Assembly: GCA_009869945.1 (NCBI GenBank)
Contig: WIXG01000780.1
Location: forward strand, 1-22,100
Source: Mesaphorura yosii
Taxonomy: Eukaryota > Arthropoda > Collembola > Poduromorpha > Tullbergiidae
Reading direction: 5' to 3'
Length of the DNA: 22,100 bases
Shown: positions 3,769-21,730 of the stretch, piece by piece
How positions within the stretch are numbered: position 1 is the first letter of the stretch
Layout: each line of letters starts with the position of its first letter
Translations under genes and position numbers: made by a program
The notes under the pieces: model-generated
The model's input: the letters and a program-made list of their open reading frames with translations, nothing else
Databases searched by the model: none
Told to the model about the DNA's origin: nothing

Positions 3769-6700
3769 TTAAGCTTTGTCATTGCCATTCTGCATCTTCT
3801 CCTCCCATTGTGAAACTAAGTTTGATTTCTTGCGTGCTTTTCCGGCGCCTGGAGCTCCGAAAGAAATATTATTTCCCAGAGCGCTGCGAGCTTTGCCTGG
3901 TGGTCCAAAGGAAATCGTATTTCCGAGTGCACTGCGCGCCATGATTGGAAAGTCAGGCTCCGAGACGGGAAGTTCGTCGCTAACGCTTTCGCCATTCTCG
4001 GAGAATACGTCATCCTCACTCTGCTGACTTGTAATTACATCATCGCTTGGTGAATGCAAAGTTAAATCGGAAGTTGACCTGAACTTTCGGGTCAGCTCCA
4101 ATTCTTTCTCTCGTTCGCGCATTTCCCGCAACTCAGCAGCAATGCGTTGCGATGTCGAGACCAGTCTGCGTCTCGGAGCAACAGGTTCATCGTCTGCAGC
4201 CTCCTCTGCTTCTTGCGCAGCTGCCGCCGCCTCTTTTGCTGCTGTTTCCTCCTCCTTTGCCTTTGCTGCTTCGTCTGATTCTTCTTGCTTAGGAATTTGG
4301 AAATTCGTCCCGATACGCAATTGCATGTTAAGTAAATACCTTCTGTCAAGGCTGTTGAATTTAGGATTTCTAGCTAAGAATGAAAATGTTTGATATGTGC
4401 TCGTAGTTCCGGGAGTTATTGGGGACTTGACAGTCTGAGGCTGAGGTGACACGGGAGCCACTTCAGTTGAAGTTTGCTTGACAATCGTCGGTTCGATCTG
4501 TCTGTAGATTGCAATTGGTGTGTCGTGTACCGGGACAGCCTCCTCTTCCACTTGGAGCTTTGGAGCCTCAACTGCTATTTCCTCTTGTTTGGATAGGTCG
4601 GAGACAGACGACGATTTTGAGCCATTTGTGTCATTGAAAGTATTCTCCTGAAAATTAAATAGGCCCACATTAATTAACCGGTCATTCTCAGGTACCGACT
4701 GAATCAGGAACTGAGCTCACCTCCAAAGTAGTCTTTGGCTGTGTCCTAGCTTTCAACTCCTCTTCTCGCAGTTTGGCTTCCAGAATTTCCTTCTTGAGTC
4801 TCTCGGTTGCCAGCACATATTGCAAGTCCTTCCCTTGAGCATCTCTGTTGGCGGCCTCCCTCGCTTCAAACATATTTCTGGTCGAAATGAATGCTGCAGG
4901 TTTGTAAGGTGCTGGTGTTGAAGTTGCGGCTGGAGGAGTCACGGCCTCAACCGCGGGCGGCGATGTCGGTACCGGCGCCGCCTGTTCCTGCACTTGGGAG
5001 TCGTTGGACATTATGCTGGCACGTCGCAGTTTGTATTCCTGTTCTCTCTCACGAGCCAGACGAATCTCCCTCTCGATGGGCGTCTCCTTCCGGTAATTCG
5101 CAATGCTGCAATAAAGAAGACGCGAATATTATGCAATACGGTTTGGAAAATTGAGTATTGATCGATATGTTCGAATTCGAATTATCCTTAAATAAGTGCA
5201 AGGTGCAAGCTGTATTTACTAGTTTTGCAGTCGCCAAGCAAATTCTGTTACAAGATCCGAATAACCGGACAGATTTCTGCAAAAGAAAAATGTGCACAGT
5301 GCGTGATGAAATTGATAATCGTTAATTGGTTTATGGAAGGAAATTTTCGCCTTGTGTGTTGTGAACAGTTTTAATTCTAACCCGAGTTTAAATACAATAA
5401 ACTTAGCTGAAGAACTTACTGGAATGAGTACGTGACGTCCTCTTCATCTGCGACATTATTCTCGGTGCTGACTGCTGCCTTGTTTGGGGATTTTGGTGTC
5501 TCGAGTTCATCGGAGCTGTTGTACTCGACATTACTTGGCTCGGTCTGCTGCAGTGTGATCGCAATCGTTGCCTTTTTGCTATCGTTGGTCTTTGCTGAAT
5601 ATTTTGACAGCTCCGGTGAACTAATGTTCACGTCGTCTTCTCCAGCATTTGAGTAGAACCCAGACTCAAGTCTTGGACTCTCCGACGGTTCAAATTCGTC
5701 GACACTGCTTCCGGGTGAGGAGAAGATGTCCTCTTCCTCGTCATCATCGCTTGTCTTGGTGTTATTGTTGTTCATTCGCTTGAGTTCCTTCTCGCGTCGG
5801 TGCAACTCTTCAATTTCTGCGTTCATTTTTTGAATCACCGAATTTGAAGCCTGTAGAGAGAAAATTGTTCTTGAGTATTCGCCGAAATTGTTTGACAACA
5901 GCTGATTGAGTACATTTAAGGCATTGGGGCCTGTGTGTCATGCGTTAAGTCTAAAATATACTATTAGCCGAGCATGAAGGTTATCGTGGACGGACGGCGA
6001 GATTTATTTGCATCGCATACTTCCAAATGAAGTAATAAAACAATACGCTCAACTGATGGCAGGACTGATTTGTTTGCCATTTAGCAAGGCACGGCGCGAT
6101 CGTACTTCGTAAGCATACTCAGCGTATTACTCGAATTTGCATTGTTTAGATAGGGGCTGTTTGCCGAGCAATACCTTTACCTTTAAAATTGACAGCGATA
6201 AAGATAAAGCGTGGCATTGTCCGTGCCCACTGAATTCCAACTCGCATGAGTACACGTTCGTATTTCGCGAACGATGTACGACAGAGCAAAGGTGATAACA
6301 ATGGTAAAGCTCTTTTAATGCCTGTACTTTACAGAATTACTGCGCAACCTTGACTTATCAATCTCAAACTCAAGCTCGCTATTTGGTTATTCAATGTAGT
6401 CGAATTTTTATGCTCAACATTTCCTCCGCTTCTGCTCTGAATTTGAAGCAAAGGCAATTGCTCTTGCGAGTGAGATAAAGAGATTTGACTTTAAAAAACT
6501 CAAAAATGCTGTCAATGTTCATCCGGATTCCATTTAAACTTGTGCAATGCATTAAAGCATGAGACACATGGCGCAGACGCTGCAAGTGAATGAATTGACT
6601 ATTTCCTACTATTACATATTTCAATGCAAATAACTTGCAAAATGTCCTTCCTTCCTGTATGCATCAGCGTTTAGCTTCAAGAGCTTCGGCGAGAGAGCGC

Positions 6701-9700
6701 ATTGACATTTCGCCTTACCTTCTTAGCTGCTTTGTCCTTATCATCCTGCTCCTTTCGCAACCGGACTTCCCAGTATTGTTTGGTCTTCTCCTTGTTTCCG
6801 ATGATGCTGTCCTCAACCACTTGCCCTGAAAGAAGTCAGCGATTGTATTTAATTAATGAAACTTAAGGAACAATGACGATTTTAAGAAAATGGAATTGGG
6901 ATTTTAGTGTCGCCTAGTCATACGCCAATTGCAATGAGAAAATTCTCACTCGAAACATGCTTACATAAAAAGATCTTTGGGTTGTGATTGTTCACCTGGC
7001 GAGCTACACTAGCCCTGGCTTTCGGTGTGGTTCTGTTAGATGTTAAGGTGGACGGATCTGACTAACCTGGCATTTCTGCGAAATATTCTTTCCAACCCGA
7101 ACCTTAACCACGCGTGAGATAAGTGACAATGAAACTAATTACAGGCGCCTCCCAATGGTTCCAGTATCAAAAGCGACTAGTTTCATTCACGGTACAAAGA
7201 CCGAATCGTTGTTGCCGGCAAGCGGAATGTAATTCTGGAGTCGCACTCGCAAGTGTGAACAATACTGACACGCCACGAAGCACGGCAAAGAGGATCACAA
7301 ATGGCGAACCAGAATGAGTCAAAGTCAGCCCATATCATTGCAGATATATTCGATACATTCTTGTCACCAGATTCATCATATCCTGCATCAAGCAGTATGT
7401 TGCTGGGATTGCGTCAATTTCGAATTTAATAATAGTTTGCACATGTTTATGGAACCAATGCCATTTATCTTATCTCGACAGCGCACAACTCAGGGTCCTT
7501 TCTGATGGAAATTGCACGATTTACATTTCGCCTGCTTGCCAATGCCACAACCACGTTTATCAGCAGACTGGCAGTGCGAGGGAGTATTACCGAAATCACA
7601 ATGATCACTATAAAAAGCCGAGTTAGAACTGGATCTCACGATGAAGATTTCAGAAGCACTGAACTAATTAACACATAAACGTAAAAGCACGAACCACAAA
7701 GCTGAGAAACGAGATGTCAACAAAAAATGAAGAGAGGCAAATGAGGCAAAGTGTGCGGTGCGGAAGAAGGCGATTAAATGTGCACTAAATGTGAGTCAGC
7801 TCAAGACAAGAGTAAGATGCAGATGCAAGACGTTTTTTGCACAGAAATTTGCGAGAGATGTGAATGCGAGTCGCGCTGAAATTTGTTACCCAATGGTACC
7901 GTTAAAGAGCGTAGCTTCAGTCTAGCAGATTACCAGGTCTACTTGGTGAACATTTAGCATATGCAAGCCCGCTCTGCATTCTCGGCAATCTGCAAGATTA
8001 TATTGAATCAGCTGCTGCACCAGAAAAGAGGTGCACTCATTCATTCTGTCATGCTATGAGGGCCTGCTGCGCTGTATGGGAAAAGACTCCTGGTTCGTTT
8101 CTTTTGCCCGTGCCCGTGCCGTGCCCACTCTGAGTGTTGAAGTAAACTTAATGCACATTTAATCGTAATAGAAAAGAGCGTCTTATCTCTCTTGCAATGC
8201 ACTCAGTATTTCTGAAGCAGTATGCTCGTACTTTACTACAATTCAATACTCAGAAAAAGGAACTTGCCCCACATTCTATTATTAACAATCATCATTCATC
8301 TTTACCCTGCAGAACAACGTGTAGTTGCAGGCAATTCTGTAACGCAATAATTCTAATACGGAAATATGAGCCAATGCAATCGTATTCACACATTCTGGCT
8401 ACTTTAATCCAATGTTGACCTCAGCCGGTCACTGTCACTACTATAAAATTATCGTCTAATTTTTTAGCAACTTGCAAAAACGATTGATACCTGAATTTAG
8501 TGCGTCTGTTAATGCATACTTTTGGATTTCTTTTCACGACTTCGAAGCAAGCAAGGCAAGAAATATCATTTGGGCTCATTTTAATTAGAACTTTGGTCAG
8601 TTATGTAAAACAAAAGATGAAATTCAAGAATCCCAGCATTTCATTGCATTGTTGGCGTCTTGAATATTACATCTTCAAGATGCGAATTGCGATTGCGATT
8701 GTTGTGCAATTTCTGATTGCACACATCTTTTTCGTTTCTTCGTCAAAGTGCCTGCCATTCTATTGTTCTTAATCAGGGTAAATCACCTGCGTATTGTTCG
8801 TACCGGGTCTCAATTCGATTACAATAGCTTGCTCAGCCCTCCTTTCCCATTTTTTCTCATTTTTTCGTTAGATAAGAATGAGATGAATGGGCTCATGTGC
8901 AGTGCAGTTTGTTTATTGTTGTACAGTCATCTTTGTTTAAAATTCCAAGTAATTTAATTAAGACGCTGCATGGCACTGCACAGTCGCAATTCGCACTTCA
9001 CTGGCTCGATTACCATTACTCTGCCATATCATGCTACAATGCCTGCCTGCCTCAGATTCGACCGGCATGGCATAATTTATGGCATATTGTCATGTGAGAC
9101 GAGAGTCTCGTGGTGGGCTTCGGCTGACTTGAAATTTACTTTTTACAGTCAAAAACTCAACGTGAGAATATGATAGGGTAATCATACGTTCGAGTTCTCG
9201 TTACACGCTTCGATGCTTCACAGCACAGCACTTGAGTACTTTTACCTTGTCGAGTCGAGTCGGATGACAGGCTATAAAAGTCTGGTAGTACAATTCAACA
9301 TTCAATGCAACATAGCTATCGGAATGGATATCATAAAAATTAGGCTCATTATCACGGAACAATTTTTTTACTTGTCTGATTAAGCTCGTGGAAGGTTACG
9401 TTTTGCAACAGCAACTTTCGTAACTGCCAAGTGCCAAAATGCCAAGCACAAATTGTCATTCATGAGATTTTAGATGGATTTATGGGGTTGATAATGCCTT
9501 CCAGCGTTGCCAGTACAAAAGCATGGCATTACACGCACAATTTGTCGAATAATTCCTGCATTCACGACATGAGCTGTATTTGGTGTGTGACATTCCCACC
9601 TACGCGGTTGCATAAAATTCAATCAGGAGACAATTTAATCGAGCATGTGCCATGAAATCGAATTTACCTCACGTAAAATTGGAGTAATTAAGAAGCCCGC

Positions 9701-12700
9701 TGGCTTACATACAGTTGGGCCTTTGCATGGTTACGTAAGAATTAATTTCATGTTTACGGAACAATAATTTATTAGGAGGAGCTCCAAATACACATTAAAT
9801 GAGTCATTCTCGTGTGTCGTGTAATAGTTCAAATGGAAATGTAAACGAAATGCAATGCAACGCAGTGTAGTGCCGGGGTTTCAACTTCCTGTCGAAGTTA
9901 ATAAACTCTTCAGTCAGCATGCTTGGCGTTCTGTTTTTCTTCGGCCAAAGACCGTATCAGCAGCGACCCATTGCAATTGCATAACATTGCGATGTGGATG
10001 AAGCGTTCACGGAAGGTGATCTAGTTGCCGAAATTGTAATGTTGCAGGTTCAATTTTAGTACTAATCAAATACAGGAAATGATTATCTCCAGATTTAAGC
10101 ATGTGGATTTCTGTGTTGATGCGACGCTGTGATTGACACATCAGGTCAGGCAATAAAATTTGCTCATTTTCTGCTAACAAATGTATTAAACGGTTTTGTC
10201 AATACTTTTGGGCGCGGCTCATCTTGACGCATGACGCACATCACGCATGTTTACTTTAACAGTATGAGTCATGATAGAACACATACAAAGGGTGAAAATC
10301 CGATTGACCCATTTCTCCGACTAATATAAATATTTACACATCATGTAGTATGCACTCAATGAGTCGCTCCCTGCCGGCTTGGTTATTTGTACAAGTTTAA
10401 TCGGTCAAGCAATTTACGGCTGTACTGTTATCATAACCTCAAGTCAAGACTGAATCTCATCGCCAAGAGAAAGTTGTGAATAAGCGAAGAATGTACGCCA
10501 TCGGGGCTTCGACGCGGCTCATATTCCTTGCATTTTGCATATGCTAATCAGCTAATCGACATTTCTATATTTGTGCTCAGCGTTATTGCACTGCATTATT
10601 AAGATGTCTTTTTGTAGAATACAATTTAACCGTCAGCCATTCGAAAATGAGATTTAAATGCACCGTCGGACTCGCGTAAACCACGCTCAGGAAGGAAGCA
10701 GCCGTGTTTTCGTTTCGTGTTCGCAGAAGGCAAGACCGATTGAGTGACATTACTAGAACAAAACTTCAATGCAAATACAGTGAATAGCGAATTTAGGAAT
10801 AATGACGATCACTTGATCGTGTCGTGTCTCGTGTATCATGAAACGAGATTATTATTAAAGCAGAAATTACCAGTGCCACAAATGTTAATGCCAAATTCAC
10901 TTCACGGCGCTGAAGCCTTGACACTCGCTCGCACTCAATTCGCATGACTTTAACGCGTTTTGCATTTCTCAAAGTTGAACTAATTACAATGTGCAAAATT
11001 GGCCAATTAAAGTACAACAGATTTCATTGTGAAATTCGAGACGACTGCGGCTGCGGCGTGCAGTTTAATTCCTTATTCCGTTTCATATTCATGACCGAGA
11101 GGCTGCTTGCCTGCCAAGCACCGGCATGATAATTGCAAACTATTCACTATTTACACTGCACGTACGACGAATCAGATGCAAAATACGTGCACCGTGCACA
11201 GAATTCAGAAAAAAAAACAAAAGAAAAAGATGAAACGAATGAAAAAGGCTTAAATCTTAATGAAATGAATTGAGACAAAAGGAGGTAAAAATCAGTCTCA
11301 AGTTTCACGAGTGGGATTAAAAACAAAAATGCACCGTGACATTTTCTCCTGAAGAGAAACATGATTATAATTTCCTACTTTATATCCCACTTCCACGTAC
11401 AACACTCTGCTTGTCTTAATGCGTGGCTCAGCTTACCCCGAAAGCCATGCCAAGTTCCATTTTAGTGGCATGTTGGAGTATGAAGAATGCAAAGTGCTGC
11501 ATCATGGCAGCACTATTTTTTATCTCTCCTTACTCCATTATCTTTAACCTCAATCATGCATTGCAAATATTTAATGTGCGTACGCGTATGCGAATCTCGA
11601 ATGCGTTGCGTGAGGATGTAAATTGAAATCATTCACGAAGAGATTTCAGACTGGGAACAACAATCCTACAATAATCTTTCTTCTCTGAATGCATCTGCAA
11701 CCCATGCATAATTGTGCACAATAAATCTCGTTACTTACCATCAATCCAATTTTCGGCGTATTTTGCCTTCACGACTTGTGCTGCGATTAATTGTCTCCTC
11801 GCGAGCTCCAACTCTTGCAGATTAACATAAATTGAATCCTCGTTATCGTGATTTCCATCTCCACCGTTAATCTTATTACTGCCGTTAAGAAGATGCTTCT
11901 GCTGATCTTGCGCGGATGTGGAAGACGCGCCAGTGTCGTTTGACGCTGATGATGATGCACTTGTCGTGGAGCTTGGACACGCTGTCGATGACGCTGCTGA
12001 TGAAGATGAGCTTTGCGATTTATTATCTTCTTCATCGTCACTTTGAGTTGACAGAGTTGACGTCTCATCGTATTTCTCAGCAGCAGCGTGCACGTCAACA
12101 ACGACAATTTCATGATGAGCTTGCAACTCTCCCACTGCTTGATCCATTTTCGCATTGTTGGCTCCGTTTGTGTCTTTGTTATCGTGTGTGATCTTCTGTT
12201 GATGAGTTTCAGGTCCAATAACTTCATTGTTGTTGCATAATAGCGGCTGTGCAGTGGCTCCTTTCTTCACGTAAAGTCGGGGCTTTGCTGCAAGCTGTGG
12301 CTTGAGCTCCTCGTAAATGACGACATGGGTTCCATTGTTGACATTTTGGTTCAGATTGAGATTGGGCCGCTTCTTGTTCTTTCTGATTAGCGTGGGACAT
12401 GGAAATTGCACATTTGTCAGTACGTCTAACGCCGCTGCATCTAAGCACTCATAATCGGGCTTCGTTGCAGTCGTCAACAATCCAGCTGCGTTGCCTGCCG
12501 GTTCTGAGTAGATGCTGTCAGCGGTGCTCTGCTTTCGTGAGTCGTTGAGATGACTTTGTGTGTCAATGCTTAACATGGTGATGGGTTTTGTGAGGCAGAA
12601 GCCTTTGTCTTGTGCGTCGAGTATGTCGCCCGCGTCAGCTGCTACCTTGTCGCAAATGTTATTGTTGTTGCCGTCAGACTCCTTCTTTATCTGACACTTA

Positions 12701-19757: not shown

Positions 19758-19760
19758 AGC

Positions 19761-21380
19761 ATGTTTCATTTGGTAGGTGCACAAATCATGCCGCCTGACA
19801 AGTTTCCAGCTCAAATTCGGTTAACTCAAGACAAGTTTTCCAACTGGGCTGGTTCAATCACAGTTGCGTGGGTGTACATTGCGCATCCGAACTCAGCAAA
19901 TGACATTGTCGCCCTCGCCAATTGGGCACAGAAGGAGAAGTACAAACTGCGGCCGCTTGGAAAGAGTTTAGGATGGTCACCGCTTGTTGTATCGTCGTCT
20001 CAAGATTGTACGTGTGTAATTGCGATCAGCTCAGATAAGCTGAACTCGATCGAATTGTTGGAACCTGATTTGGGAAGAAATGCGGTAAAAGTCGGTACCG
20101 GTGCTACAATGAATGAGCTTCTCGGATTCTTGGAGAAGAATGGACTTGGAATTAAAAATGCACCAGCCTGTGGGTATGCGACTGTTGGCGGAGTCCTTAC
20201 TGGAGGTGGTCACGGGGCAGCCATGTCAAAAACAACTCAGCATGGCTTTACGTTCGGCTCGCTCAGCAATCTTGTAATTTCACTCACCGCGGTGGTTTGG
20301 GACGCCTCGTCCGAGTCCTTTGTGCTGAAAACGTTTCACAGGAAAGACGCAGAAACTAAATCGCTCATCGTGAATTTGGGAAGACTTTTCGTTACGGAAG
20401 TTGTGCTACGAGTTGGGACTAATTACAATTTACAGTGCATCAGTCACAAGGACATTCCAGCGACTGAACTTTATAAGAATCCGGAAGACGTGCAGCCAGA
20501 CGATCGGACATTTGCCACTCTAATCGAGAAATCTGAGGGAGTGAGTTCCATTTGGTTCGTGTTCAGCAAGAATCCGTGGGTCAGAGTATTTTACGATAAA
20601 GCAGTGCGACCTGTCTCAGCAAAGGCAGTTGACAAGCCTTACGCGTACCCGTTTTCGGATAATGTGCCGCGGTTCGTGTCAAGTCTTCTGTCTTCTACTT
20701 TGAATACATTCCCGGGAATTACTCCAGTATTCGGAAATATTCAGGCAGCTTCGACAAGTGCTGGTTTGACAGTTACCCGCTCGCGCGATGTTTGGGGCTC
20801 GTCCAAGAACCTTCTCTTCTATGTGAAGCCGACCACAGTACGAATCATTTCCTATAGCTATGCAATAATCACAAAAAGGAGCAATATCCAACTTGTTGTA
20901 TATCAGTACATGAACTTCCTGGAGAACTTAATCTTAGAGTACAAAGCGAAAGGAAAGTATCCACTGAACATAGGCTCTGAACTTCGTGTAACTGGCTTGG
21001 ACATCGCAAAAGACGTCGATTTTGAAGGCGCCGAGTCTCCCTCGTTGGCTCCTTCGACGCCAGTTCCAGCCCAACCAGAGTTTGATGTCGCTATTTGGAC
21101 AGACGCAATCACAATGGCCGGTACAAATGGAAACGAGGAATTTGGAGCCGAATTAGAGAAATTCATGTTCTCAGTCTTTGACCCGGACGTTGCTGTAGTG
21201 CGGCCAGAGTGGAGTAAAGGATTTGGATACACCGCATCCTCGGGGTGGAAAAATTTGGAAGTCTTGACCAAAACGATCCCTCGACTGTATCCAGGCTGGA
21301 AGGAGGCGTTGAGAATTTTCAACAAATATGATCCTCACAGAGTATTCACGAATGAATTGCTTGATGTACTAATGCCGTAG
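19761..21380 (+). CDS. Type II cholesterol oxidase-like flavoprotein (VAO family), intronless, 539 aa
   Basis: The bacterial relatives use O2 to oxidise and isomerise cholesterol to cholest-4-en-3-one, releasing H2O2. The order matches them end to end. First is a short FPAQIRLTQDKFSNWAG lead. Then comes a PCMH-type FAD-binding domain (about 35-225) with TGATMNELLGFLEKNGLG, TVGGVLTGGGHGAAM and FGSLSNLVISLTAVVWD. Then comes a cholesterol-oxidase substrate-binding domain (about 225-530) with SIWFVFSKNPW, YAYPFSDN, DVWGSSKNLLFYVKPTT, SELRVTGLD, RPEWSKGFGYT and DPHRVFTN. Glu407 and Arg409 match the Glu-x-Arg oxygen-gate pair. The FAD-linking histidine is replaced by Leu70 (GKSLGWSPL). Length equals the mature bacterial enzyme, and no secretion signal is seen. 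Met1 follows an in-frame TAG; Met10 (19788) is an alternative start. The single exon among spliced animal genes suggests horizontal transfer. The substrate is unproven: another sterol or steroid-like alcohol is possible. Confidence 0.9.
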   Translation: MFHLVGAQIMPPDKFPAQIRLTQDKFSNWAGSITVAWVYIAHPNSANDIVALANWAQKEKYKLRPLGKSLGWSPLVVSSSQDCTCVIAISSDKLNSIELLEPDLGRNAVKVGTGATMNELLGFLEKNGLGIKNAPACGYATVGGVLTGGGHGAAMSKTTQHGFTFGSLSNLVISLTAVVWDASSESFVLKTFHRKDAETKSLIVNLGRLFVTEVVLRVGTNYNLQCISHKDIPATELYKNPEDVQPDDRTFATLIEKSEGVSSIWFVFSKNPWVRVFYDKAVRPVSAKAVDKPYAYPFSDNVPRFVSSLLSSTLNTFPGITPVFGNIQAASTSAGLTVTRSRDVWGSSKNLLFYVKPTTVRIISYSYAIITKRSNIQLVVYQYMNFLENLILEYKAKGKYPLNIGSELRVTGLDIAKDVDFEGAESPSLAPSTPVPAQPEFDVAIWTDAITMAGTNGNEEFGAELEKFMFSVFDPDVAVVRPEWSKGFGYTASSGWKNLEVLTKTIPRLYPGWKEALRIFNKYDPHRVFTNELLDVLMP

Positions 21381-21724
21381 AATTTAGGAAAATAACATTT
21401 GAGAATTTAATGCCAGCAAGCTCCATGACGTATTCTTCCAGGACTCTGAACTACAACTAATTTCATAGAGGTTCATTAAGGAATTAAAGCTACGAGTACG
21501 TTTACGTACTCTAAACTTATATTCAATTATTCTATCTAAGAATACAAAATACTTGTCCAACAAAAGACGGTGTGCACTAACAAGTCATGGCTTTCTTTTA
21601 TAAAATGCGAGTTGTGTAACACGTGTATTATTATCATCGTTGCACAGTACCTCATAAAAATCAGGAGGAAATAGCTCCTCACAGAGTTCAAGTTTCAACG
21701 CATCTAACAAATCTTAAGGAGGGT

Positions 21725-21730
21725 AATAAA
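21725..21730 (+). terminator. Candidate poly(A) signal for the oxidase gene
   Basis: AATAAA lies about 345 nt after the oxidase stop. The variant ATTAAA at 21483-21488, about 100 nt after the stop, is an alternative. Either fits a eukaryotic transcript. Confidence 0.35.

Follow-up and report, generated by a model that had tools for sequence, protein, structure and literature searches.

A type II cholesterol oxidase homologue with replaced flavin-linking and putative gate residues in a springtail genome assembly

The described type II cholesterol oxidases closest to the protein studied here are the enzyme of Brevibacterium sterolicum, BCO (PDB entry 1i19), and that of Chromobacterium DS-1 (3js8). 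The class is defined by a covalent bond between FAD and a histidine, as stated in an excerpt of PMC2890692. For the H69A variant of the Brevibacterium enzyme, the same excerpt reports that oxidation and isomerisation both persist, whereas turnover is lowered 35-fold, the potential is shifted by about 100 mV to more negative values and stability is reduced. Glu475 and Arg477 were described as crucial in catalysis (excerpt of PMC7588053), and cholesterol oxidase has been counted among the gated oxidases (excerpt of PMC9040561). The variant without the FAD-linking histidine is represented by the structure 2i0k (His121Ala, corresponding to H69A), a laboratory mutant which carries a single change and keeps Glu311. 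This residue is what we take to be the glutamate of the Arg-Glu oxygen gate, the pair being Arg477/Glu311. Arthropods cannot make sterols and depend on those supplied by the diet. With a resident enzyme from the cholesterol oxidase family of bacteria, an animal would have a new route to alter dietary sterols. Among the matches listed in the open-access literature, there was no paper on a cholesterol oxidase gene of a springtail, mite, insect or other arthropod.

The stretch of DNA analysed, here called the window, has a length of 22,100 nt and comprises the whole of contig C780 in the Mesaphorura yosii assembly, which contains 93 Mb in 1127 contigs. On the forward strand, positions 19761 to 21380 are occupied by a single open frame of 539 codons, which runs from ATG to TAG with 0 internal stops and codes for a type II cholesterol oxidase homologue of the VAO/PCMH fold (the window gene and window protein). 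Two Pfam domains follow each other in the order that characterises the family: a PCMH-type FAD_binding_4 domain at residues 39-157 (PF01565, E 3.7e-12; 19875..20231, forward strand) and a Chol_subst-bind domain at residues 224-539 (PF09129, E 4.4e-95; 20430..21377, forward strand). In a search of the PDB, 3js8 was the top match with an E of 1.7e-122 over residues 11-537, followed by 2i0k and 1i19. An AlphaFold2 model calculated from a 45-row alignment reached a mean pLDDT of 87.7 and a pTM of 0.90. When this predicted model was submitted to Foldseek, 3js8, 1i19 and 2i0k ranked first, with TM values of 0.92-0.93 (0.93 for 3js8) and 36-38% identity, in agreement with a VAO/PCMH fold. The homology to type II cholesterol oxidases far exceeds chance, and the unbroken 539-codon frame with a full-length match to these enzymes, as claimed in the earlier sequence-only reading, is upheld by Pfam, the PDB search and the fold model alike. 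L-galactono-1,4-lactone dehydrogenase and related PCMH enzymes have the FAD domain in common with the window protein, but match it in sequence only at about residues 25-154 and reach a query TM of just 0.62-0.67 to its model.

Two further copies of the family have been identified in the same assembly. An intact paralogue (locus L002), the product of which is 39% identical to the window protein, is located on contig C555 at 10848-12503, with an Ada3 gene at a distance of about 4 kb. Here, a hydrophobic first exon, by eye an apparent signal peptide, is followed by an apparent intron of 91 nt. A third copy, on contig C369 at 19804-20757 (loci L003-L005 and L010-L012), is broken by stops. On one side of it lies an F-box gene, a weak match barely above the cut-off, and on the opposite side a gene for a sodium:neurotransmitter symporter, further frames being located in between. 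In the piece of this copy which covers the Glu311 position, an Asp is read by eye.

The 5' end of the window gene is predicted only, and the printed start MFHLVG may fall inside an intron. Two acceptor-like AG ends are present on the forward strand at 19758..19777, which would place the start of the exon at 19758 (phase 0) or at 19777 (phase 1). Since phase 1 at 19777 matches, by eye, the phase of the intron in the C555 paralogue, the printed start may be intronic. Between 14 and 19.7 kb, none of 228 ATG-to-GT stretches passed the filters for phase 1, hydrophobicity and donor site that were set for an upstream signal-peptide exon. A looser list starting from 12 kb contained 74 stretches. Among those that began beyond 16 kb or were strongly hydrophobic, the few hydrophobic ones in phase 1, at 12.5-13.6 kb, were rejected as being more than 6 kb distant and having poor donors. 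No twin-arginine signal was seen by eye, in contrast to BCO and the Chromobacterium enzyme. Downstream of the frame, the eukaryotic 3' signals named in the first description of the locus are present as possible polyadenylation signals, AATAAA at 21725..21730 and a second one, ATTAAA, at 21483, both on the forward strand.

The relatives considered below are drawn from the best 120 matches of each of three protein searches, which yielded 1452, 510 and 1423 proteins at E <=0.001. The alignment derived from them contains 269 sequences besides the window protein and one relative, P0002, namely 266 searched proteins, the C555 protein, 1i19 and 3js8, and this set is redundant and rich in Streptomyces. 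At the FAD-linking position, His121 of the Brevibacterium enzyme (His69 of the mature protein), a histidine is found in 269/269 of these sequences, whereas the window protein has Leu70 (codon TTA, 19968..19970, forward strand). At the Glu311 position, all 269 have a glutamate, and the window protein has Ser262 (codon AGT, 20544..20546, forward strand). Thus, neither the histidine for a covalent bond to FAD nor the glutamate of the presumed gate is present, with the arginine of the pair being kept. P0002 carries the same Leu and Ser. The invariance of both residues holds in 71/71 representatives below 70% identity and in 79/79 readable loci from bacterial genomes, the latter obtained in a scan with a broad alignment that gave at least 431 relatives, of which the best 80 were taken and one was dropped for lack of a readable frame. 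A separate and weak search of bacterial genomes for the Leu/Ser type, using two narrow patterns from the window protein and P0002, gave 74 pattern matches with 0 relatives among them.

Further replacements, given in Brevibacterium numbering, accompany these two in the window protein and P0002. Ala198, an alanine in 269/269 of the others, is Thr in the window protein and Ser in P0002, and Lys324, likewise a lysine in all 269, is Arg in both; together with I199G, these changes (A198T/S, K324R) are absent or rare elsewhere. The residues assigned to catalysis have been retained. Glu407-Leu-Arg409 (20979..20987, forward strand) occupies the places of Glu475 and Arg477, which are Glu in 268/269 and Arg in 269/269 of the other sequences, and Glu483-Trp-Ser-Lys486 (21207..21218, forward strand) those of Glu551 and Lys554, each found in 269/269. 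The window protein is therefore like BCO and the Chromobacterium enzyme in both domains, over nearly its full length, in fold and in these four residues, and differs from them in the flavin-linking and Glu311 positions. The nearest working model is the H69A/H121A mutant, which also lacks the FAD-linking histidine but retains the glutamate where the window protein has Ser. The linked loss of the histidine and the gate residue would represent a natural version of this classic mutagenesis experiment.

Among the matches listed, two named animals were identified, the springtail Allacma fusca (P0075) and Bradysia coprophila (LOC119074591, P0186); the other names are bacterial, and many rows are nameless. 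The Allacma, Bradysia and C555 proteins, which are without a stated function, are 39-40% identical to the window protein and belong to the same family and the same animal-type group in the trees. Unlike the window protein, all three retain the FAD-linking His and the Glu at the Glu311 position. The C555 paralogue is consequently the better candidate, judged by its residues, for a true animal cholesterol oxidase, and with both residues kept it provides a built-in comparison within the same genome. P0225 has an identity of 72% with the protein of Bradysia and probably originates from a related fly, so that the fly-type gene would not be confined to one species.

P0002, from an ENA contig of 2849 bases, is 51% identical to the window protein and is the sole aligned relative with both swaps and the other rare residues. 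Its amino-acid make-up is AT-like (0.99), in common with the animal rows; some bacterial rows, such as a Serratia entomophila protein, are about equally so (0.97), and the make-up of P0002 therefore does not settle its host. P0002 may be bacterial, in which case its Leu and Ser swaps would be older than a transfer. Since both swaps are common to two proteins of only 51% identity, they are probably old, and their persistence in a frame that is still open speaks for a function. Of 114 positions with a conservation of 95% or more across 225 other sequences, the window protein keeps 88, the lowest number among eight rows counted, compared to 97 for P0002, 97 for C555, 103 for Allacma and 106 for Bradysia.

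The origin of the gene was analysed by three unrooted maximum-likelihood trees, calculated from chosen subsets of 48, 43 and 32 rows. The window protein and P0002 form a pair in every tree, with supports of 100/99, 100/100 and 100/99, respectively. In the 48-row tree, four rows labelled as animal, including P0002, the host of which is given by label only, are located on one side of a branch with a support of 82/97, the bootstrap not being settled. In the 43-row tree, five labelled rows and P0122 are set apart from 37 others (97/96). The sequence-only reading had proposed a horizontal acquisition followed by adaptation. Bacterial ancestry, host-like codon use, an intron-bearing second copy, a broken third one and named animal relatives speak for this proposal; neither a recent transfer nor a donor emerged from the trees. 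It had also stated that a tree placing the gene within a vertically inherited animal family would count against it. The protein search and phylogeny come near to that outcome, with the animal-type rows grouping apart from the bacterial rows in trees that carry no root.

A vertical inheritance within the arthropods, from a single ancient origin with many losses, has somewhat less than even odds, and it is compatible with the best explanation. It is favoured by the smallest tree, that of 32 rows, in which the window protein, P0002, C555, Allacma, Bradysia, P0122 and P0225 are separated from 25 others with 98/98, and by the five labelled rows, which were not rejected as a single clade (p-AU 0.245). 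However, the animals named among the best 120 matches of each search are only two, and the trees, besides being unrooted, carry long branches which may be drawn together; the C555 branch, with about 2 changes per site, shifts its position between trees. One old acquisition followed by losses and several transfers from related, unsampled bacteria are both conceivable histories. The window gene is no isolated oddity of this genome, and with its animal-type relatives grouped together it may be a member of an old arthropod family that was retained in a patchy manner.

For the function of the window protein, the reading preferred here, with a probability of about 0.55, is that of an old acquisition that was retuned into a sterol-type oxidoreductase with non-covalent FAD and an altered use of oxygen. 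Bacteria would have supplied an ancestor of the animal lineage with a type II cholesterol oxidase gene, which is now resident. On the branch of the window copy and P0002, the FAD-linking His would have been replaced by Leu and the Glu at the Glu311 position by Ser, together with the changes at positions 198, 199 and 324, while the alignment and the model show that the fold was retained, as were the other residues of catalysis. The protein is expected to fold around a non-covalently bound FAD and, at the Glu475/Arg477 site, to take a hydride from a 3-hydroxy sterol or a similar alcohol. Its flavin potential would be lower and the access of oxygen changed, so that it would be a slow oxidase or, with greater likelihood, a dehydrogenase which delivers the electrons to a different acceptor, and a dietary or fungal sterol or a related lipid might serve as substrate. 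The protein is probably functional, because its frame is open in comparison to the broken C369 copy, because its swaps are probably old and common with P0002, and because the other catalytic positions are kept.

The window protein is probably no longer an ordinary cholesterol oxidase, and the name is doubtful for this copy. Of the initial claim of a cholesterol oxidase that makes H2O2, the assignment to the sequence family stands, but the function is in doubt, with the FAD-linking His and an invariant Glu replaced. Immediately before the HG motif, the protein has a glycine (GGGHG). A glycine at this place permits the reaction with O2 in related enzymes, which weakens the gate argument for a dehydrogenase. 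It can be suggested tentatively, as an unlikely but more specific proposal, that in an old arthropod type II family one branch is now a new type of enzyme, an oxygen-shy sterol or lipid dehydrogenase with non-covalent FAD, by which an animal that cannot make sterols would modify the 3-hydroxyl group of dietary or fungal ones without forming H2O2. Relaxed constraint or a shifted substrate are also possible, given the 88/114 conserved positions.

That the window gene codes for an ordinary working cholesterol oxidase, slower with its FAD bound non-covalently and still making H2O2 on dietary sterols, appears rather improbable. The persistence of both activities in Brevibacterium H69A (excerpt of PMC2890692) is in line with it, as is the retention of the fold and of the four catalytic residues. 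However, two positions invariant in 269/269 sequences have changed jointly, in addition to the equally invariant Ala198 and Lys324, and the loss of one gate residue would predict a change beyond the effect of H69A. A pseudo-enzyme, in which the fold is retained for sterol or lipid binding or for regulation and turnover is absent, is still harder to favour. The loss of the histidine and the invariant glutamate and the lowest count of conserved positions would fit this proposal, but not the complete retention of Glu475, Arg477, Glu551 and Lys554, nor the FAD_binding_4 domain, which is still recognised.

In the window, a eukaryotic gene was identified on the reverse strand at 3769..6825, with four exons (6825-6719, 5850-5420, 5105-4721 and 4647-3769) which, when spliced, have one frame in common with a terminal stop as the sole stop. 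Its product presumably resembles the AKAP2/PALM2 C-terminal type. The introns have lengths of 868, 314 and 73 nt, and from the two multi-exon animal neighbours with introns of 72-82 nt that had been proposed, one four-exon gene with one intron of that size is retained. Within residues 1-500 of the spliced product, Pfam gave no family above the cut-off, nor did it in five neighbouring ORFs, one of which has a sub-threshold Tub_N match; the designation of the neighbours as animal consequently has its basis in the introns and in what the other contigs of the assembly contain. There, homeobox genes are arranged in a row on contig C22 (115800-395085), which look to us abd-A-, Ubx-, Antp-, ftz-, Scr- and Dfd-like. 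In searches of the assembly, cox1 was not found, nor was 7tm_6, the latter searched without a positive control.

The base use of the window gene resembles that of the neighbouring exons, as had been stated from the sequence. Its GC3 is 0.487, compared to 0.470 for the exons of five neighbouring ORFs and 0.914 for a homologue from Sorangium, and its codon use correlates with 0.85 to the neighbouring exons and with 0.27 to the Sorangium gene, the one bacterial homologue compared. A scan for bacterial signals gave 4 promoter-like sites, against 5.3 in shuffled sequences, and 4 terminator-like sites, against 2.2. A search for flanking repeats that could indicate a mobile element gave no more than short and imperfect repeats of 20-28 nt at 71-81%. 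As far as sequence allows, these data support a resident gene that is adapted to the animal genome. A bacterial contaminant or a chimeric assembly, for which the confinement of the window to one entire contig of 22.1 kb could be cited, is very improbable in view of the intron-bearing neighbour, the host-like GC3 and codon use that differ from the Sorangium homologue, the apparent-intron copy and the broken third copy near eukaryotic genes on other contigs, and the named relatives in Allacma fusca and Bradysia coprophila.

Some additional observations were made in the same assembly. Proteins with a FAD_binding_4 domain of a different kind are encoded on contigs C934 (8702-10297, L006) and C535 (5477-5680, L007), the former in an open frame of 532 codons with a D-arabinono-lactone oxidase domain; both are possible further acquired genes. 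OS-D was matched four times, and internal stops interrupt two of these matches. Twelve matches to DIOX_N, of the 2-oxoglutarate-dependent-oxygenase type, were identified, including one on C759 (14869-15240, L013), and one DIOX_N match is located in a single open frame of 362 codons, which adjoins a frame named by eye as histone-deacetylase-like.
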